46,776 nucleotides of DNA from Zygnema cylindricum. Taxonomy: Eukaryota; Streptophyta; Zygnematophyceae; Zygnematales; Zygnemataceae. Positions within the stretch are counted from its first letter, which is position 1. The number at the start of each line of letters is the position of its first letter. The stretch is taken from contig JBBHKE010000835.1 in assembly GCA_037447655.1 (NCBI GenBank), positions 1 to 46,776 on the forward strand, written 5' to 3'. Position numbers and translations under genes: made by a program. A model generated the notes under the pieces. The model worked only from the letters and a program-made list of their open reading frames with translations. It made no database searches and had not been told where the DNA came from. Below, piece by piece: positions 5,171 through 43,129 of this stretch.

Positions 5171-5219
5171 GAGGAAATGAAGGAAGAGGTGTCCCACTTG
5201 CCGGTGGAAAGGAGACTCG

Positions 5220-6190: not shown

Positions 6191-6311
6191 AACATCATTT
6201 TCTTTAAATTCAGCCATGTCCATCCGGTACATTTTGCTATGATCTCTAGTTCCTGTTACTGCAACTTTCCCTTTCTTGCTAACAACCTGTCTCCCTCCTT
6301 TCAAAACAACT

Positions 6312-6590
6312 TCAAAGCCTTTGCTTTACCAAAGAAGTTGAAAACATTTTTTTCTTGAAATCTGGAACAGAGATAAGATTGTGAAGAGTTCTCTCAATAG
6401 CCTTTCCTTCTATATTAACTAGCAATGAAACATCACCCACAGCACGTGTCTGTACACTAATACCACAAGCATAGTAGATATTTTTCTCGGGTGTGCATTT
6501 CAAATTTTTGAAAAATATCTTGTTCCAACACATGTGTGCCGACGCTCCTGTATCTATTACCATCCTGTGTCTTTGGCACCCTGCGTTGCT
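6312..6590 (-). pseudogene. pol (protease): copia aspartic protease (-)
   Basis: The frame reads MVIDTGASAHMC near 6560, the catalytic D-T/S-G-A motif of retropepsins, followed by the usual copia spacing to VSLLVNIEGK and the LHNLISVPDF segment that precedes the pre-integrase region. The protease would cut the Gag-Pol polyprotein. The frame closes near 6312. Family recognition is firm; activity cannot be assumed given the broken neighbours. Confidence 0.85.
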
Positions 6591-6599
6591 ACCTCGATA

Positions 6600-7560
6600 G
6601 CAAATAAGTCTTTGTCGTGCTCGTCAAAGAGTGTCAAAGATATGTCCGCGTAAGATGAAGATGTCAAGAATAGTGCATTTCCTCGAGATGTATATCCTGT
6701 GAAGCCTTGATTATACCGACTTTGTTGAAATCCACGCCTGTACAGTCCTATTTCATGAGCTCTCTTAAGCTTAAAATATAACTTATATCCATGACCTTTT
6801 CATTACAATAAAACAATCATTGAAAAATTGTCTATTCCCTCCCTCATTAAACTGTTTAAAATGATTCTGGTTTTGATTAAACTGATTTCTCTACTGATCA
6901 AACTAAGTTTTTTTGTCAAGGTCTGTTTTAAAGGCCTCTACCTGCCTTTTTGCACTGAGATTTTTAGAATCAGCTTCCTCCTCTTATATCAAATTAATAG
7001 CTAATTGTAAAGTCCAACTAGCTTTATCTTTTTGTTTCAGCCTATCAGACATTGCTTTCATAGTATTAATAGTATTACCCCTCATTAGTAATGCAGCTTG
7101 CTGACACTAAGGAAATGATCCACCTGCACAAGCATGATAGTCTATTAGAATATGAAAATTGTTATCATATTCGGCCAGTGTGCCGCATTTGTATTTGTAG
7201 TCCCAAATTTGTCCGGCCAAAAATAGTTCTTCTTCGATATTAGCCTTTTCATTATCATCTTTAAGAGACTTCCAGATATGGATCACCTTTTTCATTATTA
7301 TCCGAGACATAGCCAATTCTTTTGAGATACATAATTTTAGAATAGATCAAACTTGCGAATTTTTCTTTGACCAAGGGGCATCGGTTTTTGCCAGGGAACC
7401 ATCCAAAATATCTAAATGGTTAACATATACGAAGTGTGATTCCACCATATTTGCCCAATAAACATATTTTTCCCTCGAGAAGATAGGAATTCTTTATGAG
7501 AGGCCCATAATCTATTGTTTTATGACCATTGGAGCAGGTGGAGCAGTAGCAGTAGTAGTA
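6600..7560 (-). pseudogene. gag: copia Gag remnant (-)
   Basis: Gag can be followed only in pieces. A likely start is an ATG near 7560 followed by a Thr-rich stretch (TTTATAPPAP). Next come a copia-Gag-like N-terminal domain and the frame at 7316-7107 (IIMKKVIHIWKSLKDD...IDYHACAGGSFP), which fits the UBN2-type capsid core. A CCHC zinc-knuckle-like segment lies near 6810-6780 but is split by a frameshift. The latent DILDGSLAKTDAPW-like stretch around 7440-7370 is in another frame. Assignment rests on position upstream of the protease and weak motifs. Confidence 0.6.
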
Positions 7561-14840: not shown

Positions 14841-15410
14841 GTGACAAATGTCATTGTTTTGGCCATGTATTACAAATACCGTACAAAAAGTACTCCGACA
14901 CTTGTACTTTTATGTACGGCACAGTCCTCTGATGGTCCATACCTTTGTACAAGGGGGTTTAGAGAGGGGTTTAGGACTTATATTATTTTGGTAGATAGCC
15001 GCCTCTCTCCGAGAGAACATCTATATAAAAAAGCTAACTTTCAGCAGCCATAACTATAACCTCAATTGACCATTTTCTGTGATTCTTTTTGCTGCGACCT
15101 CAGGGTAGTCCAAACTACACAAAGGTGTAGTTGTTCAGAGTGTTTGCTTGCCAGGGTGGCTGCATTTCTAAGGGAAAGTCAGAGTGGGGAATGTTATCCA
15201 AACTCATATTCTAACTGTGCATTATATGGTGGAACTGAGCACACAAAAGTCCTATTTCACAGCGGTGACGTTGTATTCGGGTTCTGATTGTCAAAGAGTC
15301 AATCATTTGAGTTTGTATCAACTTGGAGTCAGCACTATCTAGATAAGCTTTTTTGGACCTGCTTTTTTGGACCTGCTTTTCTGGAGATGGCCTCAATATA
15401 GCAGCCGATT
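14841..15410 (+). repeat. Partial LTR, copia family A/B type (+)
   Basis: It holds the second half of the LTR type seen at 16.88, 18.20, 28.16 and 36.65 kb: paired GTAC words, GAGAGGGGTTTAGGACTTA, a TATA-like CTATATAAAA (about 15021) and TTTTTGCTGCGACCTCAGGG. The first part of the LTR, with the antisense tRNA-like block, is missing. It runs straight into reverse transcriptase sequence, so the leader, gag, protease and integrase have been deleted. Confidence 0.65.
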
Positions 15411-16876
15411 TTTAGGAGCTGGTGTATTGTCCACCTAACTGAAAACCAATTGGTTGTAAGTGGGTGTTCAAATTAAAACAAAACCCAGATAACACCATTA
15501 AGATCTACAAGGTTAGTTAGTGGCCAAAGGATTTACACAGAAAGAGGGAATTGACTACGAGGAATTCCCTCCGTCCGCATACTTCTCAGTTTGGCAAAAG
15601 CGGAAGACATGGAGGTTCACCAAATGGGTATCAAGACAACCTTTTTCCATGGAGAATTGGAAGAGGAGAGCTTCATGCGACAACCTGAAGATATTTGGAG
15701 CAAGGAGAGGAGAGTAAGGTATGTCGGCTGATTAAATCTCTTTATGGTTTGAAATAAGCGTCCGACAGTGGAATAAGAAGCTTGAAGAGTTTTTTATCGG
15801 TCAGGGATATATCTGGATCAACCCAGATCACTCAATCTATGTTTTTGAATATGAGAAAGGTGCTGTTTTTATTGCAATTTATGTTGATGATTTGTTTATT
15901 TTAAGTAAATCAATGGACAAAATTAATAAATGAAAACTTACTTAAGGGAAGATTTGAGATAAAGGATATGGGGGAGGCAAAATATATTTTGGGTATTCAA
16001 GATCGAGAAAGAATGATTATAAGATTGACTTAGAAAGAAGGAATAGGAAACAGGTTGGAAAATTTTCAGATAGATAAGGATAACACTTTTACAACTCCAA
16101 GGGAGTTAAAAAAGGGAAGTGAGGGGAGTGCGGAAGAATGAGTCATAATCTTAGACGAGGAATTAGGTCTTGAAAAACAAAAGTTCATGCAGACTATTCC
16201 TTACAGGCAAGTAGTGGGAAGCCTAACCTATTTTATACATTGTACCCAGCCGGATTTAGCTGTAGCTGTAGGAGTGCTGAATAGAAGTCTAAATGCTCCC
16301 ACTAAGAGAGATTGGGAGGCAGCTAAGAGAGTCCTTATATATTTGATAGGAACTAGGGACCTATGGTTGCATTTGGGTGGGGGGAATACTGACATCACTA
16401 CTGTGAGTGATGCTAGTTATGGTGATGCTCCGATGAGGAAATGTACTTGAGGATATGTATTATATGTGGGTGATGGGGCTTGTTGCTGGAATAGCAAACA
16501 GCAAAAGGTTATTGCTCAGTCCATCATTGAGGCTGAGTATATGGCCTCTTGATCCGCTATAAAAGAATTGATGTGGGTCAAGTCTTTGCTTGGTGAGCTT
16601 GGTCACATAAAGATTGGTGTGATTTTTTTTTTTTTGATAATCACGCAGCAATCGCTATTGCTGTCAATCATAAATATCATTTTAAATTCAAACACATGGA
16701 CATTAGACTCAATTTTGATAGAGAGAAGGTAGAAGACAAAATAATTTGTTTAGAGTACAGACTATATAGCGAGATGGAAGCACATATGTTGACCAAACCT
16801 GTGCCGTCCCTTTAGCTAATTTTCTGCAGGGAGAAAAGTGGTCTTAGATTGAAGTGTGACTAGAAAATAAGGGGAG
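15411..16876 (+). pseudogene. pol (3' part): copia reverse transcriptase-RNase H remnant (+)
   Basis: RT begins abruptly near 15411 (ELVYCPP, GCKWVFKLKQNPDNT) and continues with a KGFTQKEGIDYEE stretch. The catalytic YVDD lies at 15879-15890, followed by EAKYILGIQ. RNase H shows IPYRQVVGSLTYF, RPDLAVAV-like and TVSDASYGD blocks and ends at GGGGAG, the polypurine tract before the LTR at 16877. Many stops and frameshifts interrupt it. Parent order gag-PR-IN-RT-RH is known for copia; here everything before RT is gone. Confidence 0.85.
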
Positions 16877-17820
16877 TGTAGAAACTAAAGGTTTTACTTG
16901 TATTTTCTAGGTTTAAAACATGAGCATAAAAAAGCAGAGGCAAAAGAGAGACAGGTAGTAATTTGGTAGGTTTACCAAAAGGAACTTGACGGACCCAAGA
17001 TTTGATCCTAGTACTTGTTGTCTGTTAAGTCAAGCAATAGTCGAGAACATTATCCTATTAGTGCTGAGATAAATAAGGTTTTTTAAATATTTATAGACGT
17101 ATACGTAGACGATTTTATTTAATGCCGCAAACATTCTTTTGACATAGATATAATTTTTGTAAACGTGCGATGTACGGTACTCCAAAAAACTAATACCGCC
17201 CATTTGTTTCGACGAAGAAACAAATACCACGCATCTATTGTCGACGGCTAGAATTAAAAGCCGATCTTGATCGAACGGCCGGGATAGATGCCGATATCGC
17301 AGAATGGGCGCTTTGGCGGATTTCGGTGATCGCCACGTCATTTGACATGTGGCACAATGACATTGGCTTGCGGCATCTTTGGAGAATATGGGAGCCAATC
17401 TAGATATGGTAGACATCGACATTTTGGCCATGCCGTACGATGGCCACAAAGAAAGTACATCGGCACCTGTACTTTTTTGTATGACATAGTAATCTGATTG
17501 GTGTTGTACTCTAATAGTATAGGGTTAAGAGAGGGATTTAGGACTTAGAAAATTTGGTAGGCAGACCCCTCTCTCTCAGAGAGCTCTTGTACAAAAGGTC
17601 AACTTTGACCATTCATAACTTACTGCTCAGTGGAGCAAATTCAGATATTCTTTTTGCAATCGACTCAAAGGAATCTTGTCTTTATAGGGGTGAAGTAGGT
17701 CAAAGTTTTTATCTGTCAGGGTGGTATTAATTCTTGTGGAAACTCAAAGGGGTGAGGGTTATCCTAGGGGATTCTAGTGAGTTGCCTACTCTGAGGGCTG
17801 AGGAAGGTCTCACAATTGTA
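16877..17820 (+). mobile_element. 3' LTR of the copia remnant (+)
   Basis: It starts TGTAGAAACTAAAGG straight after AATAAGGGGAG, a polypurine tract, and ends near ATTGTA, close to the CA/TA end of related LTRs. An antisense tRNA-like block lies near 16985-17065. It also carries the common GTAC, GGACTTA and TTCTTTTTGCNNNNGACTC blocks. Immediately after 17820 another copia RNase H begins in mid-gene, so this element seems to have landed in or recombined with that gene. Confidence 0.75.
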
Positions 17821-18199
17821 AAAAGGTGGTTGCTCAGTCCACTATGGAGGCTAAGTACAGGGCCTCTTGTTACGCTGTGAATGAGTTGATGTGGGTTAAG
17901 TCTTTATTGCAAAAATTGGGGTATATGAAGGAGGGAGTGCATGAAGTGTTTGTGATAATTAGGCTGCCATTATAATTGCAGCGAATCCAAAACATCATTT
18001 AAAGCCAAGCACATGGACATAAGATTAAGCTTTGTGAGGGAAAAGGTTGAAAACAAAATTTTGAATCTTGTGTGTAGGGGTGATGGTGAAATGGTGGCTG
18101 ATATGATGACCGAACCTGTGCCCTCTCCCAAGTAAAAATATTGTAAGGAAAAATGTGGATTAAGGGAGAAATTAAAATTAGACTAGAAAATAAGGGGAG
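17821..18199 (+). pseudogene. pol (RNase H end): copia RNase H 3' end (+)
   Basis: The frame starts at KVVAQSTMEAKY, the active-site Glu region of copia RNase H, and carries ELMWVKSLLQKLGYMKEGVH. It then shows the KAKHMDIRLSFVREKVENKI tail and a DMMTEPVPSPK end, broken by at least two frameshifts. It ends at AAATAAGGGGAG, the polypurine tract before the LTR at 18200. The part before 17821 is missing. Confidence 0.85.
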
Positions 18200-19202
18200 T
18201 GTTGAAATCACTAGATTTAGGAGGTATTTTGTAGGTCTTAATAAATTAAAAGTAAAAAAATAGTACAAGTAGCGTGCCTCCACCTCCTCCCTCTGGCCCC
18301 CATACTTGTTGTAGTCACCGAAGGAAAGTGAGGGAGGTGGAGCTATGGCTGCCTAAGTTCTTTAGGCAGGGCTAAACAGTGACATAAGTCACTCTTTAAC
18401 AAAAAGGTAGAGTCTAGCAAGACTTGAACCTTTGACCGGCAGAGTAAGGTGTAGCCGTCAGCTCTTTCATGTCTGTCGTAAGAGTTTGTTAGACTACATA
18501 CGGTTTGAATGGTAGTTAAACATTTCTTAGAAACTTTGATCCGATTAACGAAATTACACATAAAGAACATAAAGACTAGTTGTAATATAGTGCGAACAGA
18601 ACTCGCACGCAACAAATGTACCAGACATTTGTTTTAACGGCTATTATTAAAAGCCGGTTTGGATCTAATGGCACACATCATCACCAAGATCTTGAAATGG
18701 CCGCTTTGGCAATTTTTGGGCATGACATGACATGGCGCCACGTGGCAAGATAAGATTGGGAAGCGGGAATCCCGGTGAGCATTAGGACAATTCTGAAGGA
18801 GACAGACGTCCACTCCATGGCTCTATCGTACACAGGCCGTACAAAAAAGACATCTGCCATAGTACCTTTCTGTACTTTACAGTTTTTTGATTTGTTTGTA
18901 CATCAGTAGATAGGGGTTGTGAGAGAGGTTTAGGACTTAGAGGATTGAGGAGGTAGCCGCATCTCTCCCAATAAGCTTGTATATATATTGGCATCTTTGC
19001 CACTTTATGATTAACCCCCTGGTTGGGCGTTTTCAGTGATGCTTTTTGTTGTGGACTCAAGGGAGTCGAGACTGCATAGGGTTGCAGTCAGATTCTCTGT
19101 TTGCCTGCTTGGGAAGTAGTGGTTCTAGTTGAAAGGGGGTTAGTCAAAAACTACCTAAAGACATCCTAAATTCTGCAGCCCAATGGGGGACACAAAATTG
19201 CA
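18200..19202 (+). mobile_element. copia family-B 3' LTR (+)
   Basis: About 1,003 bp, starting TGTTGAAATCACT after a polypurine tract and ending ACACAAAATTGCA. It contains the antisense SINE-like module (18270-18500), a TATA-like GTATATATATTGG and the TTCAGTGATGCTTTTTG block. It is closely related to the LTRs at 28160-29167 and 32384-33391. Confidence 0.8.
18270..18500 (-). repeat. Antisense tRNA-headed SINE-like module in LTR
   Basis: On the minus strand a tRNA-like head carries a B-box-like GGTTCAAGTC (complement of 18421-18430) and an A-box-like GAAAGAGCTGACGGC. It is followed by a hairpin whose arms lie at 18328-18342 and 18278-18294, with loop core GTGACTACAACAAGT (18304-18318). The module matches the free copy at 45394-45617. 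Confidence 0.6.
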
Positions 19203-22913: not shown

Positions 22914-23942
22914 TGTTGTTCATAGCCATTTTCAGCCATGAATGTACCCTCGGAAGCACCACAGACTACCCCAAAACAGCCTCCTTTGATTCCACTCAGA
23001 ATTCTACAGAATAGCCAAACCAAGCTGAAACTACTTAACCAGAGATTTTCTAGGCCACTTAGTATTCCCACCAATTTTCATATAACAATACCAAACCGAA
23101 TAATCACAACACTCAGTCAAAGTTGCTGAAAAACAACCTGCCAGAACTTTCATAAATATGACCAACTTCACAATGAATCCCCAAGCAAATCAGACACACA
23201 ATAGGTCTGCAAATTTGAAACAATATTGCAAATACAAGGAGGAACACACATGCAAAATTTCAGATAATTTTGCCAATAGAGCTAAGAGCAATTCTCAGAT
23301 GAAATTCCCAAAAAGGAGCAGAAACAGTTTTTGTCCAAAAAGTTCCTAAGTCTCAAAATGACTAAGTCCTACAAATATACACTACAGCTTACTACTCACT
23401 GTACAGAAGCATACCAGCCGTACGTAATCCATCAACTACCTCTATTAATGTGAGTGTACCAACAGTCTACACTAATAATGAAAACACAGGACAAAACATT
23501 GTTACATATTTAAAAGCCTTACAAATTCTGTAAAATGAATCTGGACCGTCCAAATTAAGTATCATGTGATGGACGCGATTTCGCTTCCCTCACCAAAATG
23601 TCCAAACTGATGCCGCCGCCGTCCGTAGTTCCGGTGGCATCCAATTCACCAAATGTCGACCGCCCTCTAATGTTTCGTATGACCAATTAATATTTCGAAC
23701 ACTAATTATCGGATCGCTTCGCGATCCGCCGTACATTTTTCCGCGTCACTTGAAGTCCAATTTCGTACGTTATAATAGTCTTAGTACTTAGTACGCAGGC
23801 TGCTATGACTGCGATGTGACCACCGCAGAATGGCAGCACAATATCTTTTCCATACATGCTGCTATGGCTGCGGTGTGACCAGCGCAGCATGGCAGCATAG
23901 TAATGTGATATAGAGAGGACTAAAGGTTTCCAATAACCAATA
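22914..23942 (-). mobile_element. Solo LTR, family C (-), inside copia integrase
   Basis: About 1,029 bp, flanked by AAGTT at 22909-22913 and 23943-23947, a 5-bp target-site duplication. On the minus strand it starts TATTGG (TG changed to TA) and runs through GGAAACCTTTAGTCCTC. It contains two related approximately 50-bp units (TGCTATGRCTGCGRTGTGACC) and the GGATCGC-GAA-GCGATCC hairpin (23711-23727), and ends GGCTATGAACAACA. Both flanks are copia integrase-like sequence. It fits LTR-LTR recombination leaving one LTR. Confidence 0.8.
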
Positions 23943-26097: not shown

Positions 26098-27147
26098 TGT
26101 TGGTTTTCGGAAACCTTTTGTCCTCTTTATATCACATTGTTATGGTGCCATGCTGCGCTGGTCACAGCAGCATGTATGGAAAAGATATTGCGCTACCCTA
26201 CTACGCTGGTCACATAGCAATCACAGCAACTTGCGTACTAAGTACTAAGATTATTGGAACGTACGAAATTAGACTTCAAGTGACGCGAAGAAACATAGAC
26301 GAAAGTGCGGAATGTGTTGGAGATATGGACGGCGGATCGCGAAGCAATCCAATGATTAATATTCGAAATGATTGAAATTCTACGTCGGCAATACGAAACA
26401 TAATGCAGTGGTCAAACATGTGATGCATTGGACGCCACCGGAGCTACGGACGCCGGCGCCTTCAGTTTCGTGAGGGACGCGGAATCGCGTCCATCACATG
26501 GTATTTATTTTGGATGGTCCATATTCGTTTGACGGAATCGTAAGACTTGTAAATATTTAACAATGTTTGTCCTGTGTATTTATTATTAATATAGATCTCG
26601 GGTAGACTCACATTAATAGAGGTAGTTGATTTATTACGTACGGCTGGTATGTCTCTCTACAGTTAGTAGTAAGCTGTAGTGTATATTTGTAGGACTTAGT
26701 CATTTTTTGACTTGGGAACTTTTTTGACAAAAACTGTTTTGCTCCTTTTTTGTGAATTTCATCTGAGAATTTCTCTCACTTCAATCGGCAGAATTGTCTG
26801 AAATTTTTCATGCATGTTCCTCCTTGTATTGGAAATATTCTGGCAGGTTTTCAGACTTATTGTGTATCTGATTTTCTTGGGGCTTCATTGTGAAGTTGGT
26901 CATATTTATCAAAGTTCTAGCAGGCTGTTTTTCTGCAATTTTGACAGGGTGTTGTGATTACTCGGTTTGGTATTGTTATATTAATATTGGTGGGAGTACT
27001 TAGTGGCCTAGGAACTATCTGGTTGAGTAATTTCAGCTTGGTTTAAATATTTTTTAGAAATCTGAGTGGAATCAAATGAGTTTGTTGTGGGGTAGTCTGT
27101 GGTGCTTCCGAGGGTACATTCATGGCTGAAATCGACTATCAACTACA
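26098..27147 (+). mobile_element. Solo LTR, family C (+), inside copia RNase H
   Basis: About 1,050 bp, TG...CA, with CAACA (26093-26097) on the left and CAAGA (27148-27152) on the right as a one-mismatch target duplication. Removing the LTR and one CAAGA gives a continuous RNase H reading across the site. It carries GGAAACCTTTTGTCCTC near its start, the hairpin at 26334-26350 (one stem base changed) and the common LTR end. It lies in inverted orientation to the solo LTR at 22914-23942. Confidence 0.82.
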
Positions 27148-28159: not shown

Positions 28160-29167
28160 ATTATAAAAATTACTAAATTAATAGTGTCTTTTCTATGTCT
28201 AAATTGATCAGTAAAATAAAAAAAGAAAAGGGCAGACAACCTGTTTCCACCTCCTCTCTCTAGCCACCATACTTGTTGTAGTCACTGAAAGATAGAGAGG
28301 GTGGTTCAGCCATGGTTGCTTTAGCTCCACATGTTAGACTAAAGAGTGACATACGTCACTCTCAATAAAAAGGTTGAGTCCGGTAGGACTTGAACCTCCG
28401 ACCGGTAGAGCGAGGCATAGCCAACAACTCTAACATGTTTGTCGTAGAAGTCCGATACAATACATGGGGTGTGATATTTATTTAAACGTTGTTTAATGGA
28501 TCTAGTTCAATTAACAAAATAACGGACTGAATACATAGAGATCCGTAAGATCACGGTACAACACGTCACACACAAAACAAATTAAACGGACATTTGTTTG
28601 GATGGCTAATAATGAAACTGAGTTCTGATCCGAGGGCGCGTATCATCGCCGAGATCCCAATATGACCACTTTGGTCGTTTGTAGGCGTGGCATGACTTGG
28701 CGCCACAAGGCTGAATAAATTTGTACGCGTAAATCTCGGGAAGCATAAGGACGAATCATTTGGAGACAAGTGTCCACCCAATGGTCTTATCGTACACAGG
28801 CCGTATAGAAAGTACATCAGCCGTAGTACCTTTCAAAACTTTACAGTCGTATGATTTATCGTATATCAGTAGATAGGGGCTATAAGAGGGGTTTTAGGAC
28901 TTAGGAAATTTTGGTAGATAGACACCACTTCCTTAAAGAGTTATTTATAAACTTGGCATTTTTGCCACCTTATAACTTATCCGCTCGTTGGTCGTCTTCA
29001 GTGATTATTTTTGCTACAGACTCAAGGGAGTCCAAGCTACAAAAGGATGCAATCAGATTGTCAATTAGTTTGCTTGGGCAGCAGTGGCTATGGCTGAGAT
29101 TGGGTTAATTTAAAACTATCTAGAGGCTTCCTGAATTTTGTTGTCCAATGGAAGACACAAAATTTCA
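28160..29167 (+). mobile_element. copia family-B 5' LTR (+), left half of inverted pair
   Basis: About 1,008 bp, the same length as its inverted partner at 32384-33391. The start is degraded and the end reads ACACAAAATTTCA directly before the primer-binding site. It holds the antisense SINE-like module and the usual GTAC, GGACTTA and ATTTATAAA (TATA-like, about 28944) blocks. Confidence 0.75.
28236..28455 (-). repeat. Antisense tRNA-headed SINE-like module in LTR
   Basis: The B-box-like GGTTCAAGTCC is the complement of 28386-28396. The hairpin arms TAGAGAGGGTGG (28293-28304) and CCACCTCCTCTCTCTA (28247-28262) enclose the loop core GTGACTACAACAAGT in complement. Confidence 0.6.
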
Positions 29168-29182
29168 GGTTATGGGCCCACC
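29168..29182 (+). promoter_or_regulatory. Primer-binding site (initiator tRNA-Met 5' half)
   Basis: GGTTATGGGCCCACC follows the LTR end directly and is the exact complement of 15 bases of plant initiator tRNA-Met around its anticodon. The ATG at 29172-29174 opens the gag frame. Confidence 0.75.
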
Positions 29183-30500
29183 CTCTAAGGTGCCCACCTT
29201 CAATCAATCAGGGTTGGTCTAAAGGGAAGCCATGATGACAGGGGATTTGTGCGAAAAACAACACTAGGGTATGGTTTGTGGACAAGTGAAACGTCCACCT
29301 CAGGCAACTCCACTAGGGTTTGGTGGAATAAGGTTTGTTCAAGCAGCAACTGCTGCAGCAGAGGAGGCATATGATGGGGACATTAGTGTGTCCAAAAGTG
29401 GAAAGAGAAGGAGACACCTCTTACTCCAATTGCCCCTATTACCACGGCACAAGAAGCGACAACCATGAAAACCGCGGAGAACGATACCCAAACCTGGGAA
29501 GACATCAACATGGCTGCCAAAAACTTCATTCTAAGACACCTCCATCAGACTTTCGCCACCCCCCATTTTCACATTTACAAGGCCGAGGAGTTGTGGGTAA
29601 GTTTGGTGGAGATCTATAGAGCTCTAACTATTCGGGAGCTCTAGTTGGTAGAGTAGAAGTTAGGGAACTATACTTACAAAGGGGGAAAGATGTTAGATTA
29701 CAGTAATGATCTCTCTTGCTTGTATATGGAGTTGGAGACTATTGGGTGGACACATACAATGAAGATGAAAGTTACACTCTCATCATGAAGTTACCCGACG
29801 AGTATAAAAACATAACACACTAAATAGAGAAAATGACTGACAATTCATGGAAGTGGAACACAGTGGTCCGGATGATACTTGTGCAAGAAAACTCAATTAA
29901 GATTAGGAGAGGGGGAAAGAGCATCCAATATCTAGCTGCAGGAGCAAACCGGTGGGGGAAAGATCCGAAAAAGCCGTACAAAAGAGAGAGATCAGGCTGG
30001 AGGACTGAGCCCCCCAAAGGGTCTTTGTCATTTTTGCAAAAAGTCGGGACACTTCATCGCGGATTGTGTCAAGCTGTCGGAACTGAGGCTCTAAGAGAAC
30101 CGTGGAGAGGGTTCTTTTGGAGGGAATAAGAAAGCACTTGTGGTCACAAAAGTGAAAGGAGAGACCGAGGATGAGTCCTCTGAGGAGGAGGATGGGGAGC
30201 TTCTTCTTGACAAGAGTCTGGAGGAGAAAGAGATCCTTAGGAAATAGAAATGTGCTCTCGAAGCAATTCGAGAAGCTCCATAGGAAGGATGGATAATCGA
30301 CTCAGGTGCATCAATGCATATGTGCCGTGATAAGCATCTCTTTACTAAGATAAGAAAGATCCTTACTGTAGAGATAGAGTATCGGGATGGTAGAGTGGTT
30401 ACTAGAGATCTAGTGGTGTCAATAGTTCTCAAATTCTTAGTGGAGGGTAAGACATCTATACTCACCTTCTCAAATGTACTCTACATTCCTCAACTTCAGG
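29172..30500 (+). pseudogene. gag-pol: copia Gag-protease remnant (+)
   Basis: The frame starts MGPPSKVPTFN inside the primer-binding site and is broken by TAA and TAG within about 100 bases. The Gag core is recognisable in pieces, including a CHFCKKSGHFIADC zinc knuckle near 30030-30070 and an Arg/Glu-rich linker. The protease shows GWIIDSGASMHMC near 30290-30325 (TAG just before) and the VLYIPQL block near 30495. There the sequence jumps to the opposite strand of a second copy. At least five stops are present. Confidence 0.8.
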
Positions 30501-32379
30501 CTTTACTTCTCACTCCAAGCTTTATATTCGTTGAAGTAAATTCGTGTTTTAGACTTATATGTTAGAAAGTAGACTCTAGAGTATCTAGACTAGTCATCCG
30601 TTATTGTCAACATAAACCTCTTTCCTCTAACGGAAGGTACCTTTGCAGGTCCCCAGATATCTCTGTGGACCAGATCTAGTACTTTCTCACCTCTATATGT
30701 GGCGACTTTGGGAAAAGAAAGTCTGTGAGCCTTAACTTGAGCACAACCACTACAATAATCCATCATTTCATTATCCCCAATCTGAATGTCTTCTACTACC
30801 CAAAGCTTTTTCATTTACCTCAACCTTTCAAAATACACACGCCCCAACGGCTTATGCCAAATCATGAACTTTGGAACACCAACATAATATGCATTCTTCT
30901 TTTCATACTCAGGTTAAGCCTAAACATTCCTTGGCTACCCTTATCTGCCCTGAAGTAGATTTCATCCCCATACTTAGCTGTAAAGACTCCTTTTCTATTA
31001 AAGGGATCAAACTCTCTGTCATCTAACAAAGACGAAGAGACAAGATTTTTACTTAGCTGAGGAATGTAGAGTACATATGAGAATGTGAGTATAGAAGTCC
31101 TACCCTCCACTAAGACTTTCAGATCTGCCGACCCCACTAGATCTGTAGTAACCACTCTCCTATCCCCATACTCTATCTCAATAGTAGGGATCTTTCTTAG
31201 CTTAGTAAAGAGATGCTTATCATGACATAAATGCATTGATGCACGTGAATCCATGATCCATCCTTCTTCTAGAGCTTCTCGAATCGCTCGGAGAGCACAC
31301 TTCTGTTTCCGTGGGATCTCTTTTTCCTCAAGAATCTTGTCAAGAAGTAGCTCCCCATCCTTCTCCTTAGAGGACTCGTCCTCAGTCTCTCCTTTCTCTT
31401 TTGTGACCACAAGTGCTTTCTTCTTCCCTCGGGAAGAACCCCCACCATAGTTCTCTTGAAGCCTCACCTCCAACAGCTTAACACAATCCGCGATGTTGTG
31501 TCCCAGCTTTTTGCAAAAATGACAAAGACCATTTGTGGGCCTCAGTCCTCCAGAGAGATGTCTCTCCTTAGTACGGTTTATTTGGATCCTTCCCCCACCG
31601 GTTTGCTCCTGTAGCTAGAGCTTGGATGTTCTTTCCCCCTCTCCTAATCTTAGTGGTGTTCTCCTGCACAAAAATCATTTGGACCACTGTGTTCCACCTC
31701 CATGAACTGTTAGTCATTTCATGTACTCGGTATACTATGTTTTCATACTCGTCGGGTAACTTCATGGTGAGAGTGTTGAATTTCATCTTTATTGTATCTG
31801 TCCACTCGGCACTCTCAATTTCCAAATAGAAACAAAAGAGATCATTACAATAGTCTAACGTCTTTCCCCCTATTTAAGTATAATTCCCTAACTTTTGTTC
31901 GGCCAACTGGAGCTCATGAATAGTACCAGCTCTATAGATTTCCACCAACTCACCCAAAACTCCTAGGCCTTGTGAATGTGAAGATGAGGGGTTGCCAAAG
32001 CCTAAGTGAGGTGTCTTAGAATGAGGTTTTTGGCAGCCATTTTGATGTCTTCCTACTTTTCGGTATCGTTCTCCGCGGTCTTCATAGCCGCCGCTCCAGG
32101 TGCTGTGGTAATAGCAGCAATAAGATTAAAAGGCGTCTCCTTCTCTTTCCCCTATTTGCACACACTGTTGTCCTGATCATCTACCTCCTCTATCGGAGCA
32201 AATGCTGCTGTAAAAAACCTTATTTCACCAAACCCTAGTGGAGTTCCCTAAGGTGGACGTCTCACTTGTCCACTGACAATACCCCAGTATCGTTTCTCAC
32301 ACAAATCCCCCATCATCATGGCTTCCCAATAGATGAACCCAAATCCATTAAAGGTGGGCACCTTAGAGGGTGGGCCCAT
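30501..32379 (-). pseudogene. gag-pol: copia Gag-protease-integrase remnant (-)
   Basis: On the minus strand the frame begins MGPPSKVPTFNG at 32379 in the primer-binding site. It passes through Gag, where stops occur, and a CHFCKKLGHNIADC-like knuckle near 31530-31490, then protease GWIMDSRASMHLC (Gly of DSGA changed to Arg, about 31250). The pre-integrase CSGCAQVK follows (about 30755), then the integrase start HRDIWGP with ITDD. A TAG then lies before SRYSRVYFL. It ends near 30501 at NEYKAWSEK. It is about 85% like the plus copy where they overlap, judged by eye. Confidence 0.82.
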
Positions 32380-32383
32380 AACT
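32369..32383 (-). promoter_or_regulatory. Primer-binding site (initiator tRNA-Met 5' half), (-)
   Basis: On the minus strand AGTTATGGGCCCACC follows the LTR end; 14 of 15 bases match the complement of plant initiator tRNA-Met. The gag ATG lies inside it. Confidence 0.7.
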
Positions 32384-33391
32384 TGCAATTGTGTGTCCTC
32401 CATTAGACTACAAATTCAGGAAGCCTCTAGATAATTTTTAACTAACCCCCTTTCAGCCACAACCACTGCTGCCCAAGTAGACAATTTGACAATATGATTG
32501 CACCTTTATACATTTTGGACTCCCTTGAGCCCGTAGCAAAAAGAATCACTAAAAACGGCCAACCAGCCGATTAGTTATAGGGTGGCAAAAATGGCAATTT
32601 ATACAAACTCTTAATGAGAGAGGTGACTGTCTATAAAAATTATCGAAGTCCTAAATCCCCCCTCACAACCCCTATCTACCATACTGCGATCCAATCAAAT
32701 CACAGTACAGTACAAAAAAGTACTACGCCCTGTACTTCTTGTATAGTTTGTGTATGACAAGGCCATTAAGTTGACGCGTGTCCACTTTTAACTCGTCCTT
32801 GTGTTCACCAGAATTCTCGCAACCGAATGTTATTTCTCCACGTGTCACCAGGTCACCCCACTTGCGAAAACCGCCAAAGTGACCATTTCAGTATTGCGGC
32901 AGCGATATGTGTCGTTAAATCGTAAACCGACATTTAATATTAGCTGTCGAAACAAATGTCCGATTCATTTGTTTCGTGCGATATCAAGTTCGCACTATAT
33001 TAGTTAGTTCTATGTTCTTTCATTCCTCATTCTGTTAATCGGATTTAGGATCATAACATACGTTAAATATTTATCACACCCTATGTTTTTTAACAAACTC
33101 CTACGATAGACAGGTTAGAGCTGACGGCTACGCCTCGCTCTGCTGGTTGGAGGTTTGAGTCTTGCCGGACTTAACCTTTTGTTGAGAGTGACTTTTGTCA
33201 CTCTTTATTTTTGCCTATGGAGCTGAAGCCGCCATGGCTCCACTACTCTCTCTCTCTCTCTCTCTTAATGACTACAACAAGTATGGGGGCTAGAGAGACG
33301 GGATGGAGGCAGACTGTCTGCACTTTTTTTTTCGTTTTCCGCTAAGTTATTTAGACCTATTAAATACCCTATAAATAGAGTAATTTCAAGA
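32384..33391 (-). mobile_element. copia family-B 5' LTR (-), right half of inverted pair
   Basis: About 1,008 bp. On the minus strand it starts TCTTGAAATTAC (TG changed to TC) and ends ACACACAATTGCA before the primer-binding site. It carries the SINE-like module, GTAC pairs and the TTCTTTTTGCTACGGGCTC block. Confidence 0.75.
33105..33335 (+). repeat. tRNA-headed SINE-like module in a minus-strand LTR
   Basis: On the plus strand: GGTTAGAGCTGACGGC (end of a D arm), the B-box-like GGTTTGAGTC (33152-33161), then a hairpin with arms at 33237-33264 (partly a CT microsatellite) and 33291-33310. The loop is ATGACTACAACAAGT and a T run follows. It is antisense to its host LTR, as in all other copies. 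Confidence 0.6.
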
Positions 33392-36032: not shown

Positions 36033-36649
36033 TGTTGTTTTTGGAAACCTTTAGTCCTCTCTATGCCTTGTATGTGAGGGAGAGGTCTTGGACTTAGTCG
36101 TTTTGGGTGCAGATTGAGTCATCGGAAACCTGAATTAGTGTGATAGTAGCTTGGAAGGGAGTACACAATTTGAGTTAACACCCCGAGAAACCCGTCGATT
36201 CGCGGGAAAGCAAATTTTGTACAGTCCGATTGTTGCAGCGCGGATTCACGTGAGGACCAGATTTACACATGGAAAATCATCGTTTTTGGTGAACGAATAT
36301 GCGGACAGCGGACTGAGACCGTCGACATTTTTGAAGACAAAAGTTGATTGTGCACACTTTCGTTTGACGCGGCAGTCAGTTTACTACGTAGCTGTAAATA
36401 CCGAGTACCGTAGACAGTTGTCTTTTAAGTGTTAGAATTTAGTGTAGATAGTTTACCACAATATCAATGGTACGAGGTAGTTCAGCTGTAGGTTCACTTG
36501 TATATGTGTAGGACATAGATTTTGAGTAGAAATCACTTTTGTAGTAAAAAACCTTTGAATACAATTTTTTTTTTGGGTTTTTGATTTAATAGAACTTTTA
36601 GACCTGTGGGCAAAATATTGTAAAATTCTGCATGTGTGTTCATTGTCAC

Positions 36650-37539
36650 TGTTGAAAAGAGGTAATTAATAGTTCACTACCCTATTTTAGTTTCGCTTTA
36701 AAGAAAGAGAGTGAGGACCAAAGGCGCGCCATGGCTGCCGCCATATTTAGAAAGTGGAAGTTTTTGAGGTAATGGTTATTTTGCTAAAATGATGCCTTGG
36801 TCTAGGTTTGAACCTGAGACCTCTAGATTCCCTATAGCTTAACGCCTTAAAAATTAAGGCGTTACGAAACGATATACGTGACGGGTTTCATAAGTATATA
36901 AACATTAACGAAACAGCTAATTAACAACAGACTAACCAAAAGGAGCAATTTCTGCATGTACGCGAATCTAAACCGAGTAAAATATGTTTTGATCGGACGG
37001 CCGGCATTAAAGCCGCCACGCGGAGTAAGCTTTTTGGCGGCATACGGAGATAGCGTCACGCGGTGCCACGTGGCGCCACATTATTTGATACCGGAGAAGA
37101 TGGGAGGAGGAACCATGGCTTCCGATTTGACAAGCGTCGCCTTGTAGACCTTGTCGTACAATGGTCGTACAATAAGTACATCGCCCATTTTACCTTCTTG
37201 TACTATATAGTGTTCCTATTAGACTAGGGTTTAGTAGTAGGTAGTCGTGAGTAGGCAGACCGAGACTTAGTAATATTTACGTACCTCTCTCTCTAAGAGA
37301 GCTTGTAACTATAAAGGTCATCTTTGACCAGCCATAACTTACTGCTCAGGGGAGCAAATTCAGTGATTCTTTTTGCGTTTGACTCAGGGGAGTCTTGTCC
37401 TCACAGGGGTGAGAGTGGTCAGATTATTTGTCTACCTGGGCGGCGCTTATTCAGCGGGAAAGTAGAAGGGGCAAATATTATTCTAGAGGCTTTACATAGG
37501 CTGCTCATTCTGTGGGTCAATGGAGACCACATAATTTCA
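36650..37539 (+). repeat. 5' LTR
   Basis: 890 bp, from TGTTGAAAAG to ATAATTTCA. In order: an antisense tRNA-like block (36790-36860), two CGTACAA motifs (37155-37161, 37166-37172), the GAGACTTAG block, a TATA-like CTATAAAG (about 37310) and the TTCTTTTTGCGTTTGACTC block shared by all related LTRs here. U3 probably extends to the TATA region. Confidence 0.93.
36790..36860 (-). repeat. Antisense tRNA-like block in the 5' LTR
   Basis: On the minus strand GCCTT...AAGGC outer arms enclose a TTAAGGCGTTAAGC D-arm-like segment and the B-box-like GGTTCAAACC (complement of 36805-36814). The homologous 3' LTR copy is better kept and reads TGGTTAAGGCG, typical of Ser/Leu/Arg-type tRNAs. The SINE hairpin part is largely lost in this family. 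Confidence 0.55.
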
Positions 37540-37554
37540 GGTTATGGGCCCACC
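37540..37554 (+). promoter_or_regulatory. Primer-binding site (initiator tRNA-Met 5' half)
   Basis: GGTTATGGGCCCACC directly abuts the LTR. It pairs over 15 of 15 bases with the initiator tRNA-Met segment GGTGGGCCCATAACC, the anticodon stem and loop of plant tRNA. Pairing stops after base 15. This implies priming from a tRNA cut in the anticodon loop, as described for Drosophila copia, not from the 3' CCA end. Confidence 0.82.
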
Positions 37555-38752
37555 CTCTAGGGTGCCCATATTTGATGGATCAGACTTTCTTTATTGGGAA
37601 ATGATGATGGAGGGAAAACTATTTGAGAAGCATCTATGGGGCATAGTGTCTGGACAAATTTGATGCCCACCTCCACCTGGGTTTGGAGGGACACGTTTTT
37701 CTGGCACCTCCGCCTCTACAGTTGGTAGAACAGCTGCCACCATCACCGAGGATGAAGATGATGAAGGAGAGGAGATTGTCATGGAAAGAGAAAAGGGAGG
37801 AGTTGCAACTCAAGTGACACCATTGCCGAAGGCGATACCGGCAGCACCACCACCAAAAACGGCGACAAGGGTTCAGACCGAAAGATCGGAGTATGAAAAG
37901 TGGAACTACAAAGACAAGGTTGCTAAGCTCTTAATTCTTAAAAGTGAAGCAAAGAGCATTGCCATTCCCCTTATGCATGTCAAATCTTCATCTCAGATTT
38001 GGATATCACTAGTTAACAAATATAAGAGTGGATCATTGCAGCAACAACAGTTGGCCGAAAATAAGATTGCAGCTTATACTTATAAAGGAGGAAGTATGAA
38101 TTATTATTGAAATGATTTAGGAGCATTATTTGGAGAGTTAGAGAGTGCAGGTAACTCATGGTCCGAGAGACAAAGAGTGAACACATTAATGATGAAACTA
38201 CCTGAAGAGTATGAGAATATCATTAACCGATTGAAGGACATGGGAGATAGCAATTGGAATTGGGATGACACAGTGGGAATGATTTTAGTGAAAGAAAGCA
38301 CCATAGAGCTTAAAAGAGGGAGTCCAAGTGTTCAAGTATTCTCTGCAGGAGCTGATTGGCGGAAGCGTGATGAGGAGAGAGGGAAAGATCCTTATCAAAA
38401 CTTTGGTGGAAGAGGACAAGGAGGTGGCAGATTTGATAGACAGGGGAGAGGAACTTCTCGAGGAGGATTATGTCACTTCTGTAAAAAACCGGGACACTAT
38501 ATGGCAGATTGTGTCAAAATTGCATATCTTCGACTGAAAGATGGGCAAGGAACCTCAAGGGATGGAGGAAAGAAAAAGGCTTTCGTGACTCAAGTTCATG
38601 ACGAAGAAGTGGAAGGAAAAATTGAACCAGAAGAGGAGCTTGAGGAGCTTCTTCTTAATCCGAAAAACATTGAAAAGCATGTCGACATTCCACGGAGACA
38701 AAAGTGTGCTTTCGGATGTAAGAGGGATCCACCCGAGGATGGGTGGATCATA
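37544..38752 (+). pseudogene. gag: Gag (broken)
   Basis: I place the start at the ATG inside the primer-binding site. From there the frame reads MGPPSRVPIFDGSDFLYWE, matching the usual copia Gag opening (FDG...W), and stays in frame with the rest. Two TGA codons interrupt it (37661, 38108). The UBN2-type capsid region spans about 37880-38300 (KIAAYTYKGGSM, LMMKLPEEYENII). An Arg/Gly-rich stretch precedes the zinc knuckle CHFCKKPGHYMADC at 38471-38512, which binds genomic RNA. An acidic linker leads to the protease. The frame continues into pol without a break, as in most copia. Confidence 0.88.
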
Positions 38753-39483
38753 GACTCAGGGGCTTCAATGCATATGTGCAAAGATAAGCGGTGGTTCACT
38801 AAACTGAGAAAGATCCCAACAGTTGAGATAGAGTACGGAAATAGTAGAGTAGAAACCACAAGTCTTGTTGGAACTGATGACTTGAAGGTTCTAGTTGATG
38901 GAAAGGCCTCAATTGTAACACTCTCATACGTTCTTTACATTCCACAGCTTAGCAAGAACCTAGTCTCAACAGCTGTCCTATATGAAAAAGAGTTTGAAAC
39001 AGAAACTAGGAAAGGAATCTTCACAGCAAGCTTTGATAATGAGGATTATTTCATAGCTGAGAAGGGTAGTCAAGGAATGTTCAGAATTGTTCTTTGCAAT
39101 GAAAAGAGTGTTCTCTACTTGTGTGCAAGTGAGATGATGCTTTGGCATAAAAGGTTGGGGCATGTACATCTAGATAGATTGAAGAAAATGAAGAAAAAGG
39201 GAATAGTGGAGGGTATTACTTTTGAGGATGATGAGACCTTTGATGATTGTAGTGGATGTGCCCAAGGGAAGATTCATAGACTTCCATTTCCAAAGGCAAC
39301 CACATTTAGGAGAGAGAAAGTATTAGATCTAGTTCACACTGATGTTTGGGGACCTGCTAGGTATGTTTCACATGGCGGGAAGAGATGGATGTTAACCATC
39401 ACAGATGATTGGTCTAGATACACGAAGGTATACTTTCTCAGACATGGTCTAGATACACGAAGGTATACTTTCTAAGACATAAG
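38753..39483 (+). pseudogene. pol (PR-IN): Protease and first part of integrase (broken by duplication)
   Basis: DSGA at 38753-38764 is the retropepsin active site, followed by VLYIPQLSKNLVS. The pre-integrase zinc module has RLGHVHLDRL (about 39155) and CSGCAQGK (about 39247). The integrase core opens with HTDVWGP, first catalytic Asp at 39341. ITDDWSRYTKVYFLR is encoded next. Its tail is then repeated out of frame by a 35-bp tandem duplication (39411-39445 and 39446-39480), so the open frame ends at 39475. Confidence 0.92.
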
Positions 39484-40764
39484 TAAGAGGTATTAAGATG
39501 TTTCAAAGAGTATAAAGTATGGAGTGAAAAACTACACGAAACCTCAATAAAAGATATAAGAAGTGATAATGGGAAAGAATACACCTCAAGGGAATTTGAA
39601 GAATATCTTAAAGAAGAAGGAATTCATCATGAGAAAATTGTTCCCTATAATCCAGAACAAAATGGAGTAGCAAAAAGAGTGAATAGAACTTTAGGAGATA
39701 TGTCCAAAAGTATGTTAACTGATAAGAGGATAGGGTTGCAGTTTTGGGCAGAGTCTATGAACTATGCTAATTTCATCAAAAATAGAGTCCTAACTTCAGC
39801 AAATAAAGAGGAAACTCCGTATGAGAGGTGGACAGGAAGAAAGCCTGATTTGTCTAGTTTGAGAGTGTTCGGAAGTCAAGTCTACAGTTTGGATTCCGAT
39901 AAGACTAAATGGAAGTTAGAGGGGAGAGGGAAGCCAGGATATCTTGTAGGATATGATGAGAGCACAAAAGGATACCGAGTGTATGACTTGAAAAAGAGAG
40001 ATATAATTATGGTAAAACACATAGTGGTGATGAATGAAGAGAAGTCCATTGATCCATTCAAATATAATAGGGAAGTCAAAATCAGATTTGAAACGGATCA
40101 GTTTTCCGACTTTGACTTTGAAAATGAAGAGAAGGGAGAGGGAGAGGGAGAAAAAGAATAATCTGCAGATTTACCAAAGGAGAAGGAGGAAAGGACAACA
40201 TCCGAGGCAACACCACAATACGAAGTGGAAACTGAAGAGGAACTTGATAAGACACCGGAATTGGAAGATAGGGGAGCTGAAAATCTTCCTAAACGAAACC
40301 CAAGGATGCCTTCCATACCTGCGTCCGATTTTGAAGGGGGAAGAAGAAGTAGTAAACGACTTCAAGAAAGACAAGTAAATAACCAACTCACAAAGATGTC
40401 TCACCCAGATGAACCTCAAACATACTTAGTGGCCATAAACACTCTAGAAAGTAGCCGGTGGATCACAGCTATAAATGAAGAAATGGCCTCTATCATGGAA
40501 GCCAATACATGGGAGTTGGTAGATTGTTCACCAGACCGAAAACCGATCGGATGTAAGTGGGTGTTTAAACTTAAATTAAACCCGGATAACACCATAGAGA
40601 GGTATAATACTAGGTTAGTTGCAAAAGGTTATACTCAGAAAAAGGGGATAGACTACGAAGAAACCTTTGCACCTGTAGTCAGATTTCCTTCTGTTAGAAT
40701 CCTTTTAAGTATAGCCGCAGCGGAGGATATGGAAATCCACCAGATGGATATTAAAATTGCCTTT
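39484..40764 (+). pseudogene. pol (IN-RT): Integrase core to start of RT (broken)
   Basis: After the duplication the frame shifts by two and opens with a TAA (39484). RSDNGKEY carries the second catalytic Asp at 39565. The residue 36 codons on, where the DD35E family has Glu, is Lys (AAA, 39673-39675). NRTLGDMSKSML and LQFWAESMNYANF follow. The C-terminal block has GYDESTKGYRVYDLKKRD, then an acidic linker with a TAA at 40159. RT begins with WELVDCSPDRKPIGCKWVFK, an RLVAKGYTQKKGIDYEETFA block and MEIHQMDIKIAF, stopping at TAG 40765. Confidence 0.92.
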
Positions 40765-40767
40765 TAG

Positions 40768-42030
40768 CACGGAGAGTTGGAAGAAGAAATTTACATGAGG
40801 CAACCGGAAGGATTCGTGGAAAGTGGGGAAGAAAACAAAGTTTGCAAACTGATAAAATCACTCTATGGGCTTAAGCAAGCCCCGCGACAGTGGAATATAA
40901 AGCTCGACGAATTTCTGACCGGTTTGGGGTATATCAGAATTAGTTCAGATCACTCTATATATTTATTTGAGGATGAGAATGGAGTGATATTTATTGCTAT
41001 TTATATGGATGATTTGTTGGTCTTAATCAAGTCCTTAGATAAAATTAACAAACTAAAACGGGATCTTAGAAGCAGTTTTGATATGAAAGATATTGGCGAA
41101 GCAAAGTACATTTTGGGAATTCAGATGGAGAGAGATAGAGGGAATAGAATTATAAGACTGACTCAAAAAGAAGCAATCGGTAATATGCTAGAAAAATTTC
41201 AAATGGAGAGAGCAAACGGATGTACTACTCCCATGGATTTGAAGAAAGTGAGTGAGGGGAGTGAAGAGGGAGGAATATTCATCATTAATGATGAGATGGA
41301 TGAGATAGAAAGAAAATTTATGGAAAATATCCCTTATCGGCAGATTGTAGGCAGTTTAATTTATTTTATGAACTGTACCCGTCCGGATATAGCTGCAGCT
41401 GTATGTGTCCTTAGTAGAAATCTAAATGAACCAAAAAAGAGAGACTGGGAGGCTGCCAAAAGGGTGATGAGGTATCTGGTGGGGACAAGGGAATTATGGT
41501 TGCATTTGGGAGGGGAGCACACTGACATCACCACTTGGAGTGATGCCAGTTATGGAGATGTGCCTTTAAGGAGGTGTACGACTGGATATGTGTTGCAAAT
41601 TGCATCCGGTGCATGTTGTTGGAGTAGCAAGCAACAAAAAGTAGTTGCTCAGTCCATTATGGAGGCTGAATACATGGCTTCCTGTGCTGCCACCAAAGAA
41701 TTAATGTGGGTTAAATCTCTTCTTAAAGAACTTGGGTTCATGAAGTCTGGAACTCAAAATGTTTTTTGTGATAATCAAGCTGCTATCTGTATTGCAGCAA
41801 ATCTGAAACATCACTTCAAAGCTAAGCATATGGATATTAGACTAAGCTTTGTCAGAGAGAAGGTAGAAAATAAAATTATTAAACTGGTTCATAAAACTGA
41901 TAGAGAAAATATTGCAGACATGATGACAAAAGTAGTGCCTTCCCCTAAGCTGATTTATTGCAGAGAAAACTGTGGATTAAAATTGAAAAGTGACTATGAA
42001 TTAAGGGGAGTGTTGAAAAGAGGTAATTAA
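40768..42030 (+). pseudogene. pol (RT-RNase H): RT catalytic part and RNase H (open frame)
   Basis: In the same frame as the preceding RT, it carries HGELEEEIYM, LYGLKQAPRQWN and the catalytic box as YMDD (41002-41013), where most copia have YVDD. EAKYILGIQ and LTQKEAIGNML follow. RNase H has TWSDASYGD (Asp), EAEYMAS (Glu), FCDNQAAI (Asp) and a KAKHMDIRLSFVREKVENKI tail with ADMMTK. This is the longest intact frame in the window. Its stop lies 20 bases inside the 3' LTR. With the TAG at 40765 this part could not be made from the upstream start without readthrough. Confidence 0.93.
42003..42010 (+). promoter_or_regulatory. Polypurine tract
   Basis: AAGGGGAG directly before the 3' LTR. The same tract precedes the LTRs at 16877 and 18200. 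It primes plus-strand DNA in LTR retrotransposons. Confidence 0.88.
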
Positions 42031-42900
42031 TAGTTCACTTCCCTATTTTAGTTTCGCTTTAAAGAAAGAGAGTGAGGACCAAAGGCGCGCCATGGCTGCC
42101 GCCATATTTAGAAAGTGGCAGTTTTTGAGGTAATGGTTATTTTGCTAAAATGATGCCTTAGTCTAGGTTTGAACCTGAGACCTCTAGATTCCCTATAGCT
42201 TAACGCCTTAACCATTAAGGCGTTACGAAACGATATACGTGACGGGTTTCATAAATATATAAACATTAACGAAACAACTAATTAACAACAGACTAACCAA
42301 AAGGAGCAATTTCTGCATGTACGCGAATCTGAACCGTGTAAAATATGTTTTGATCGGACGGTCGGCATTATAGCCGCCACGCAAAGTGAGCTTTTTGGCG
42401 GCATACGGAGATAGCGTCACGCGGTGCCACGTGGCGCCACATTATTTGATACCGGAGAAGATGGGAGGAGGAACCATGGCTTCCGATTTGACAAGCGTCG
42501 CCTTGTAGACCTTGTCGTACAATGCTCGTACAATAAGTACATCGCCCATTGTACCTTCTTGAACTATATAGTGTTCCTATTGGACTAGGTTTTAGTAGTA
42601 GGTAGTCGTGAGTAGGCAGACCGAGACTTAGTAATATTTAGGTACCTCTCTGTGTAAGAGAGCTTGTAACTATAAAGGTCACCTTTGACCAGCCATAACT
42701 TACTGCTCAGGGGAGCAAATTCAGTGATTCTTTTTGCGTTTGACTCAAGGGAGTCTTGTCCTCATAGGGGTGAGAGTGGTCAGATTATTTGTGTGCTTGG
42801 GCGGCGCTTATTCAGCGGGAAAGTAGAAGGGGCAAATATTATTCTAGAGGCTTTACATAGGCTGCTCATTCTGTGGGTCAATGGAGACCACATAATTTCA
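42011..42900 (+). repeat. 3' LTR
   Basis: 890 bp, TG...CA, followed by GTCAC. Nearly identical to the 5' LTR. Its antisense tRNA-like block (about 42150-42222) keeps better pairing and reads GCCTTAATGGTTAAGGCG in tRNA sense with the B-box-like GGTTCAAACC. Confidence 0.94.
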
Positions 42901-43129
42901 GTCACATTCCCTATACTGCCATAGATTTCAACACCTAGCGTGTGTTTGGTCTGTGTGCAACTTCATTTTGAAGTTGTGTATTTTATGGTTTTCTGTGAGA
43001 GCTTACTCTCTATATTTTATTTTCTATCATGACTTTTGCTGCAGCCTCTTCTTCTTCTATGGCTGCAGCTGTCACAAATCAGCACTGAGTACACATTGGT
43101 GCAAATTAAAAGAAATACTGTCGAAAGAG

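Follow-up and report, generated by a model that had tools for sequence, protein, structure and literature searches.

On the evidence of sequence, the window (the whole 46,776-nt stretch of Zygnema cylindricum DNA analyzed here) holds three copies of what is probably a large Ty1/copia family primed by half of the initiator tRNA-Met at a site abutting the long terminal repeat (LTR), with Gag starting inside the LTR, in U5, usually eight codons before the ATG of the primer-binding site. One of the copies, whose primer-binding site begins at position 37540 (the 37540 copy), extends from 36650 to 42900 on the plus strand, and its two LTRs are 96.9% identical over an 891-nt match (Table 1). Its gag and pol pieces match copia families in Pfam, and the rve and SH3 matches of the integrase part, in 39487-40158, lie upstream of the RVT_2 match of the reverse transcriptase part, in 40768-42027, which is the order of Ty1/copia elements (Pseudoviridae). 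A TG...CA LTR pair together with a 5-bp target duplication was found for this copy only, one of the three in the window; the copy at 29168 and the minus-strand copy were seen to match each other and other LTR-like stretches of the window. Two copies of one copia subfamily, at 28167-30495 (+) and 31055-33386 (−), stand head to head as an approximately 79% identical inverted repeat with about 560 nt between them.

A protein search with the reverse transcriptase piece gave 3,216 matches, the best 120 of which were all 40 to 45% identical, with no close relative among those listed; the listed matches that carried an organism name were all from flowering plants. The corresponding gag search scored 7,991 candidates, none of them at an E value of 1e-5 or below, and an Rfam search returned nothing at gathering scores. 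Bacterial and archaeal records among the matches listed from a genome-contig scan were taken as chance.

TABLE 1 Features of the three copies in the window (negative numbers count from the ATG of the primer-binding site; PBS, primer-binding site)
Feature	Copy	Position	Strand	Basis or remark
Target-site duplication GTCAC (5 bp)	37540	left 36645..36649, right 42901..42905	+	Read at LTR borders
5' LTR, TG...CA	37540	36650..37539	+	Pairs with 42011-42900; ends read
U5-end hairpin region	37540	37507..37535	+	Covariation and single-sequence fold; one pair broken by the TAA change
Upstream in-frame ATG (−24)	37540	37520..37522	+	Present in most junctions and sites (counts in text)
TAA closing the upstream extension	37540	37532..37534	+	Frame reading
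Primer-binding site	37540	37540..37554	+	Exact motif match and complementarity to plant tRNA
ATG within primer-binding site	37540	37544..37546	+	In most copies an internal Met, codon 9 of the extended frame; here the first usable ATG
gag, N-terminal part	37540	37544..38110	+	Retrotran_gag_2 (Pfam); in-frame stops at 37661-37663 and 38108-38110
Remaining gag, Pol_BBD (beta-barrel), gag_pre-integrs	37540	38111..39475	+	Pfam
Integrase part, rve and SH3	37540	39487..40161	+	Pfam; frame differs from gag
Reverse transcriptase part, RVT_2	37540	40768..42030	+	Pfam
3' LTR	37540	42011..42900	+	Same element; ATG...TAA end also present
U5 hairpin region	Second	29135..29163	+	Covariation alignment
Upstream ATG	Second	29148..29150	+	Open to PBS ATG
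Primer-binding site	Second	29168..29182	+	Exact motif
Primer-binding site	Third	32369..32383	−	First base A, not G
U5 hairpin region	Third	32388..32416	−	Covariation alignment
Upstream ATG	Third	32401..32403	−	Open to PBS ATG

The putative primer-binding site at the LTR end

The 14-mer GTTATGGGCCCACC is present exactly at 29169-29182 (+), 32369-32382 (−), and 37541-37554 (+). By chance, 0.17 matches with up to two mismatches would be expected in the window, and 0 of 100 shuffles reached three. A count over the whole assembly (2,689 contigs totaling 352.8 Mb) found 7,512 occurrences of the 14-mer and 9 of the reversed string, and allowing one mismatch gave 11,472 matches against 28 for the reversed control. 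Primer sites of copia elements begin at the first base after the CA end of the LTR. The earlier note had placed the motif with no gap behind three LTR ends, and this was confirmed: each window copy adjoins a CA end, and the base that follows is G, A, and G, respectively. Of 101 distinct junctions, 91 have CA at the LTR end; the base after the LTR is G at 78, A at 17, C at 5, and T at 1.

The sequence GGTTATGGGCCCACC is complementary at 15 of 15 nt to nt 25 to 39 of a plant initiator tRNA-Met, from which that of the host may differ; ARAGORN folded this plant tRNA as tRNA-Met(cat). The whole-tRNA 3'-end site TGGTATCAGAGC gave one window match with two mismatches, which is within chance, and so the Ty1 feature of a primer formed by the 3' end of a whole tRNA was not found, the site fitting nt 25 to 39 of the plant tRNA and not its 3' end. 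The complementarity leads us to infer that the site abutting the LTR most likely binds the 5' half of initiator tRNA-Met as a primer, in agreement with the earlier note. In Drosophila copia, the primer is the 5' half of initiator tRNA-Met and its end lies near nt 39, a likeness to the present site. Such a half-tRNA primer site would be of an already known kind, provided that the host tRNA is as expected. The letters common to the sampled copies are no evidence for a primer site, because the copies were found by those letters. Likewise, AUG is bound to be present in any site complementary to this anticodon loop, and hence finding it there is by itself no evidence of a start codon.

Two further candidate interactions were rejected. 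Longer tRNA pairing downstream of the site gave duplex energies with nt 1 to 24 of the plant tRNA that were no better than those of mononucleotide shuffles (seven copies; lowest fraction, 0.09). A hairpin of the 3' half of the site with codons 5 to 8 was predicted in some of the seven copies and a different one in others, and it is not claimed here.

The upstream ATG and the gag frame

The main sample consisted of the first 100 listed genome places (contigs C1 to C43) and the three window sites, which gave 103 junctions, 101 of them distinct after L150 and L197 had been dropped as duplicates; two extra matches at locus edges were left out. An exact match to the site was the criterion by which all of these junctions were picked. 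Codon variation was read in 72 copies, frames and TATA-like boxes in 91, and ATG density in 71 of these 91, and the gag tree comprised 71 copies. Counts of conserved trinucleotides, AUG context, and frame stops refer to 90 copies (L014 dropped), and hairpin covariation was scored in 79 distinct rows.

An in-frame ATG lies 24 nt upstream of the site's ATG, in the LTR end, at 91 of the 101 distinct junctions, and the frame is open from it to the site in 79. Read by frames only, a gag frame that begins in the LTR and includes the primer-binding site, as in Ty1, was therefore found at 79 of the 101 junctions. Genome-wide, the upstream ATG is present at 6,118 of the 7,512 sites, compared with 7 for the reversed control. 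It is the most conserved trinucleotide from −190 to −5 (81 of 90 copies), and on a tree built from gag only (71 copies), it changes seven times, always on tips. In 71 copies the downstream sequence was long enough for gag to be judged, and in 14 of them gag is open for at least 330 codons; the ATG at −24 is present in each of the 14, and in 12 the frame is open from there. Farther upstream, the frame is closed by a stop between −180 and −25 at 99 of the 101 junctions. The extended frame reads across the primer site as (Q)VMGP, where the ATG of the site normally encodes an internal Met. The upstream ATG of the 37540 copy is likely to represent the ancestral Gag start.

The earlier note had equated the AUG used for Gag with the AUG inside the site. 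For most copies this fails, and a conserved upstream in-frame ATG in intact copies, which it had named as evidence against its reading, is present in every gag-intact copy. Its further claim, that the primer-site ATG opens gag in all three window copies, was not confirmed: MGPPS-K/R-VP is read in each of them, but two of the three are open upstream to the ATG at −24. The 37540 copy is the only window copy with a stop between the two ATGs, and owing to this stop the site's ATG is likely to be the start there.

In a separate search, sites followed by a base other than C were found at 201 places, and 20 loci were retrieved and read. Eleven were variants of the main family, and nine had different downstream sequence; the latter were compared by their junctions. 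An upstream in-frame ATG is present in seven of the nine, at −24 in two near-identical loci (L224 and L225; MENYEFQVMGP...), at −30 in four (L221, L230, L233, and L237; MAENGYGQQVMGP-like), and at −63 in one (L222; MATAGASSSSSGSPVASNQQVMGP...). In L226, the upstream frame is open for 21 codons without an ATG. In L220, a stop closes the upstream frame, which has no ATG; the same holds for L014 of the main sample, which resembles the −30 group. No gag start is recognizable downstream in L220 and L230. Since the ATG distances differ by whole codons, these loci provide the best evidence for translation of the upstream part.

A stop is present in the extension at 12 of the 91 ATG-bearing junctions, either at codon 5 (TAA in seven, TGA in one) or at codon 7 (TAG in three, TAA in one). 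Between −21 and −4, stops are found in 12 of 90 copies in frame 0, in 15 in frame 1, and in 2 in frame 2. At the seven junctions with TAA at codon 5, it stands in place of GAA and disrupts a pair of the hairpin; as the same TAA is seen in two subfamilies, it would be either recurrent or exchanged between lineages. One TAA change in the extension maps to an internal branch of the gag tree, and TAA is also found in the extension of L001, whose branch is short and whose gag is open over at least 465 codons. Together, these two observations imply that the extension is either not essential or provided in trans. In the 37540 element, the ATG...TAA end is found in both LTRs, indicating that the element was probably inserted with the TAA already there.

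At the upstream ATG, position −3 is a purine in 14 of 81 copies. The site's ATG has G at −3 in 101 of 101 junctions and G at +4, both dictated by the search pattern. The mostly poor upstream context, against the good context at the site, would likely allow leakage to the second AUG.

The region preceding the upstream ATG is poor in ATG. From about −350 to −25, ATG density is 0.14 to 0.76 per 100 nt, compared with 1.4 to 2.3 upstream of −350 (71 copies), and in the same copies this stretch holds 102 ATGs versus 275 expected from dinucleotides; CAT, the strand control, occurs 263 times. Between −200 and −28, ATG is absent altogether from 52 of 91 copies. The ATG-poor stretch looks like a scanned leader, in which the AUG at −24, where present, would be the first AUG. 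Of the 30 copies listed, several have TATA-like boxes, placed at about −336, at about −232, or at both. The loss of ATG is sharp and that of CAT smaller, and the onset lies near the TATA-like boxes; ATG loss might serve for mapping the transcript starts of LTR families from sequence alone.

The U5 hairpin and the probable start of Gag

From −37 to −9, a conserved 11-bp hairpin is predicted; it has a bulge, and the upstream ATG lies in its six-base loop, N-AUGGA. In the 79 distinct rows, 89.9% of the pairing cells are paired, versus 76.5% (standard deviation, 0.8) after shuffling, the covariation score is 0.436 versus 0.195 for shuffled rows, and slid versions of the hairpin are at most 50% paired. 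Two cruder measures came out close to those of the shuffles, namely pairs changed on both sides (7 versus 6.5) and further pair types (21 versus 18.1), and RNAalifold alone returned three inner pairs only. On the gag tree, 13 compensatory changes, from standard pair to standard pair with both bases altered, fall on internal branches; changes to non-pairs number 76, with tips and internal branches counted together. Codons 3 and 4 vary at positions 1 and 2, not 3 (72 copies), a pattern attributable to the hairpin that fits it rather than a constraint on protein. Because of the hairpin constraint, the eight extension codons are without a clean protein-coding pattern. The AUG in the loop could be kept for an RNA role.

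In the account that we consider probable, the genomic RNA would be scanned from the cap across the AUG-poor leader to the AUG in the loop of the U5 hairpin. Gag would begin at this AUG and in part at the AUG of the site, eight codons downstream; where a stop closes the extension, the second AUG would serve instead. Inside the particle, the 5' half of initiator tRNA-Met would anneal to the site, and cDNA would start at the LTR end. Translation and priming would then use the same bases: with a Gag start at the LTR AUG, ribosomes would have to cross the bases that anneal to the primer, so that translation and reverse transcription would share a stretch of RNA. With thousands of copies in one genome, the trade-off of coding, structure, and primer pairing becomes measurable.

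Three other readings were weighed against this account. According to one, the site's AUG is itself the Gag start, and initiator tRNA and its half compete for that single AUG. The strong context of the site's AUG would favor such a start, though in the sample the search pattern dictates it, and this AUG is the first usable one in the stop-bearing copies, including both LTRs of the 37540 element and the long-open L001; clear third-position variation, moreover, begins only downstream of the site (90 copies). The upstream in-frame ATG of most junctions and sites and of all 14 gag-intact copies argues in the other direction, as do the in-frame ATGs at other upstream distances in copies with other downstream sequence, and we regard this reading as unlikely. 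One AUG for both uses, as the earlier note had envisaged, is contradicted by the upstream ATG of most copies and could apply at most to copies with a closed extension, or in part through leaky scanning. A different possibility, also improbable in our judgment, is that the upstream AUG is kept only as a loop motif of an RNA hairpin, with possible roles in tRNA capture (AUGG with CCAU of the anticodon loop), dimerization, or packaging, and that Gag starts at the site's AUG by leaky scanning. The covarying hairpin with AUGGA in its loop, the mostly poor −3 context of the upstream AUG, and the stops tolerated in some copies are consistent with a purely structural role; such a role accounts poorly for the depletion of leader ATGs upstream, which is expected where the first AUG matters, and for the in-frame ATGs at −30 and −63 in other copies, the hairpin having been examined in the main family only.

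The remaining reading, that the site is a part of gag conserved as protein (VMGPP) and no half-tRNA primer site, seems very improbable. The site does lie in the gag frame, and the tRNA compared is a plant sequence that may differ from that of the host, but full complementarity to the anticodon arm of this plant tRNA, starting right after the CA end of the LTR, speaks against a constraint on protein alone. Starting from the preferred account of a half-tRNA-primed family with a Gag start in U5, a more elaborate arrangement may be imagined, although we hold it to be doubtful. The last 40 nt of the LTR and the primer site would form one RNA switch around initiator tRNA, in which the AUGG of the loop pairs with the anticodon loop of the intact tRNA, for translation or capture, and the site, a few bases past the stem, pairs with the cleaved half. 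Translation, whether from the loop AUG or from that of the site, and the start of cDNA would then be mutually exclusive on the same RNA, and there would be two N-terminal forms of Gag.

Known systems and other features of the window

Among plant copia lineages, Osser, Bryco, and Gymco-II are reported to have half-tRNA-Met primer sites (PMC6317226), half-tRNA priming helps to define Hemivirus (PMC8515867, PMC1181622), and in Hemivirus-type priming cDNA starts at nt 40 (PMC1181622). The present family shares with these elements the Ty1/copia order, the TG...CA LTRs, and a putative initiator tRNA-Met half site adjoining the LTR, a likeness of features. It differs in that the gag frame crosses the site from an ATG borne by the LTR, on which no statement for those lineages was found in the portions of these sources covered. 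In Saccharomyces Ty1, a 53-nt 5' untranslated region precedes GAG, the primer-binding site (nt 95 to 104) lies inside GAG, and the AUG is in a helix (PMC5454406). Ty1 and the present family would have in common a Gag start upstream of the primer site, a site inside GAG, initiator tRNA-Met, and a structured start codon. Ty1 uses the 3' end of a whole tRNA and has its AUG in a helix, whereas the present family would use the anticodon half and has the AUG in a predicted hairpin loop. Caulimoviridae leaders similarly combine a Met-tRNA primer site and translation signals in one structured leader; in CaMV and RTBV, however, ribosomes shunt around a long leader hairpin, and the primer site lies in the leader, not inside the first long frame (PMC5902531).

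The overlap of coding sequence and primer site is itself known from Ty1, with its whole-tRNA primer; in the present family it would occur together with a half-tRNA primer site and a covarying hairpin that displays the upstream AUG. A search of the open-licence literature, outside which most subscription papers lie, found no description of an LTR-borne Gag start in half-tRNA elements or of a loop AUG. The family would be copia in type, its primer site resembling that of Hemivirus and its gag, which reads through the site, that of Ty1; this combination was not found described in that literature.

Several other features were seen in the window. Another copia element lies at 3479-6623 (−), with matches to RVT_2 (E = 1.9e-53) and rve (E = 1.1e-12); pattern searches of the window found neither a half-tRNA nor a whole-tRNA primer site near it. 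A 199-amino-acid frame, open from stop to stop at 2053-2652 (−), has no Pfam match at an E value of 0.001. The stretch at 18205-19202 is approximately 70 to 72% identical to the LTRs at 28167 and 33389 and is likely to be the 3' LTR of an element whose pol remnants lie at about 15384-18207. An inverted duplicate, 81% identical, is formed by 22914-23940 and 26100-27147, and a 167-nt direct repeat at 23415 and 25652 is 98.8% identical.
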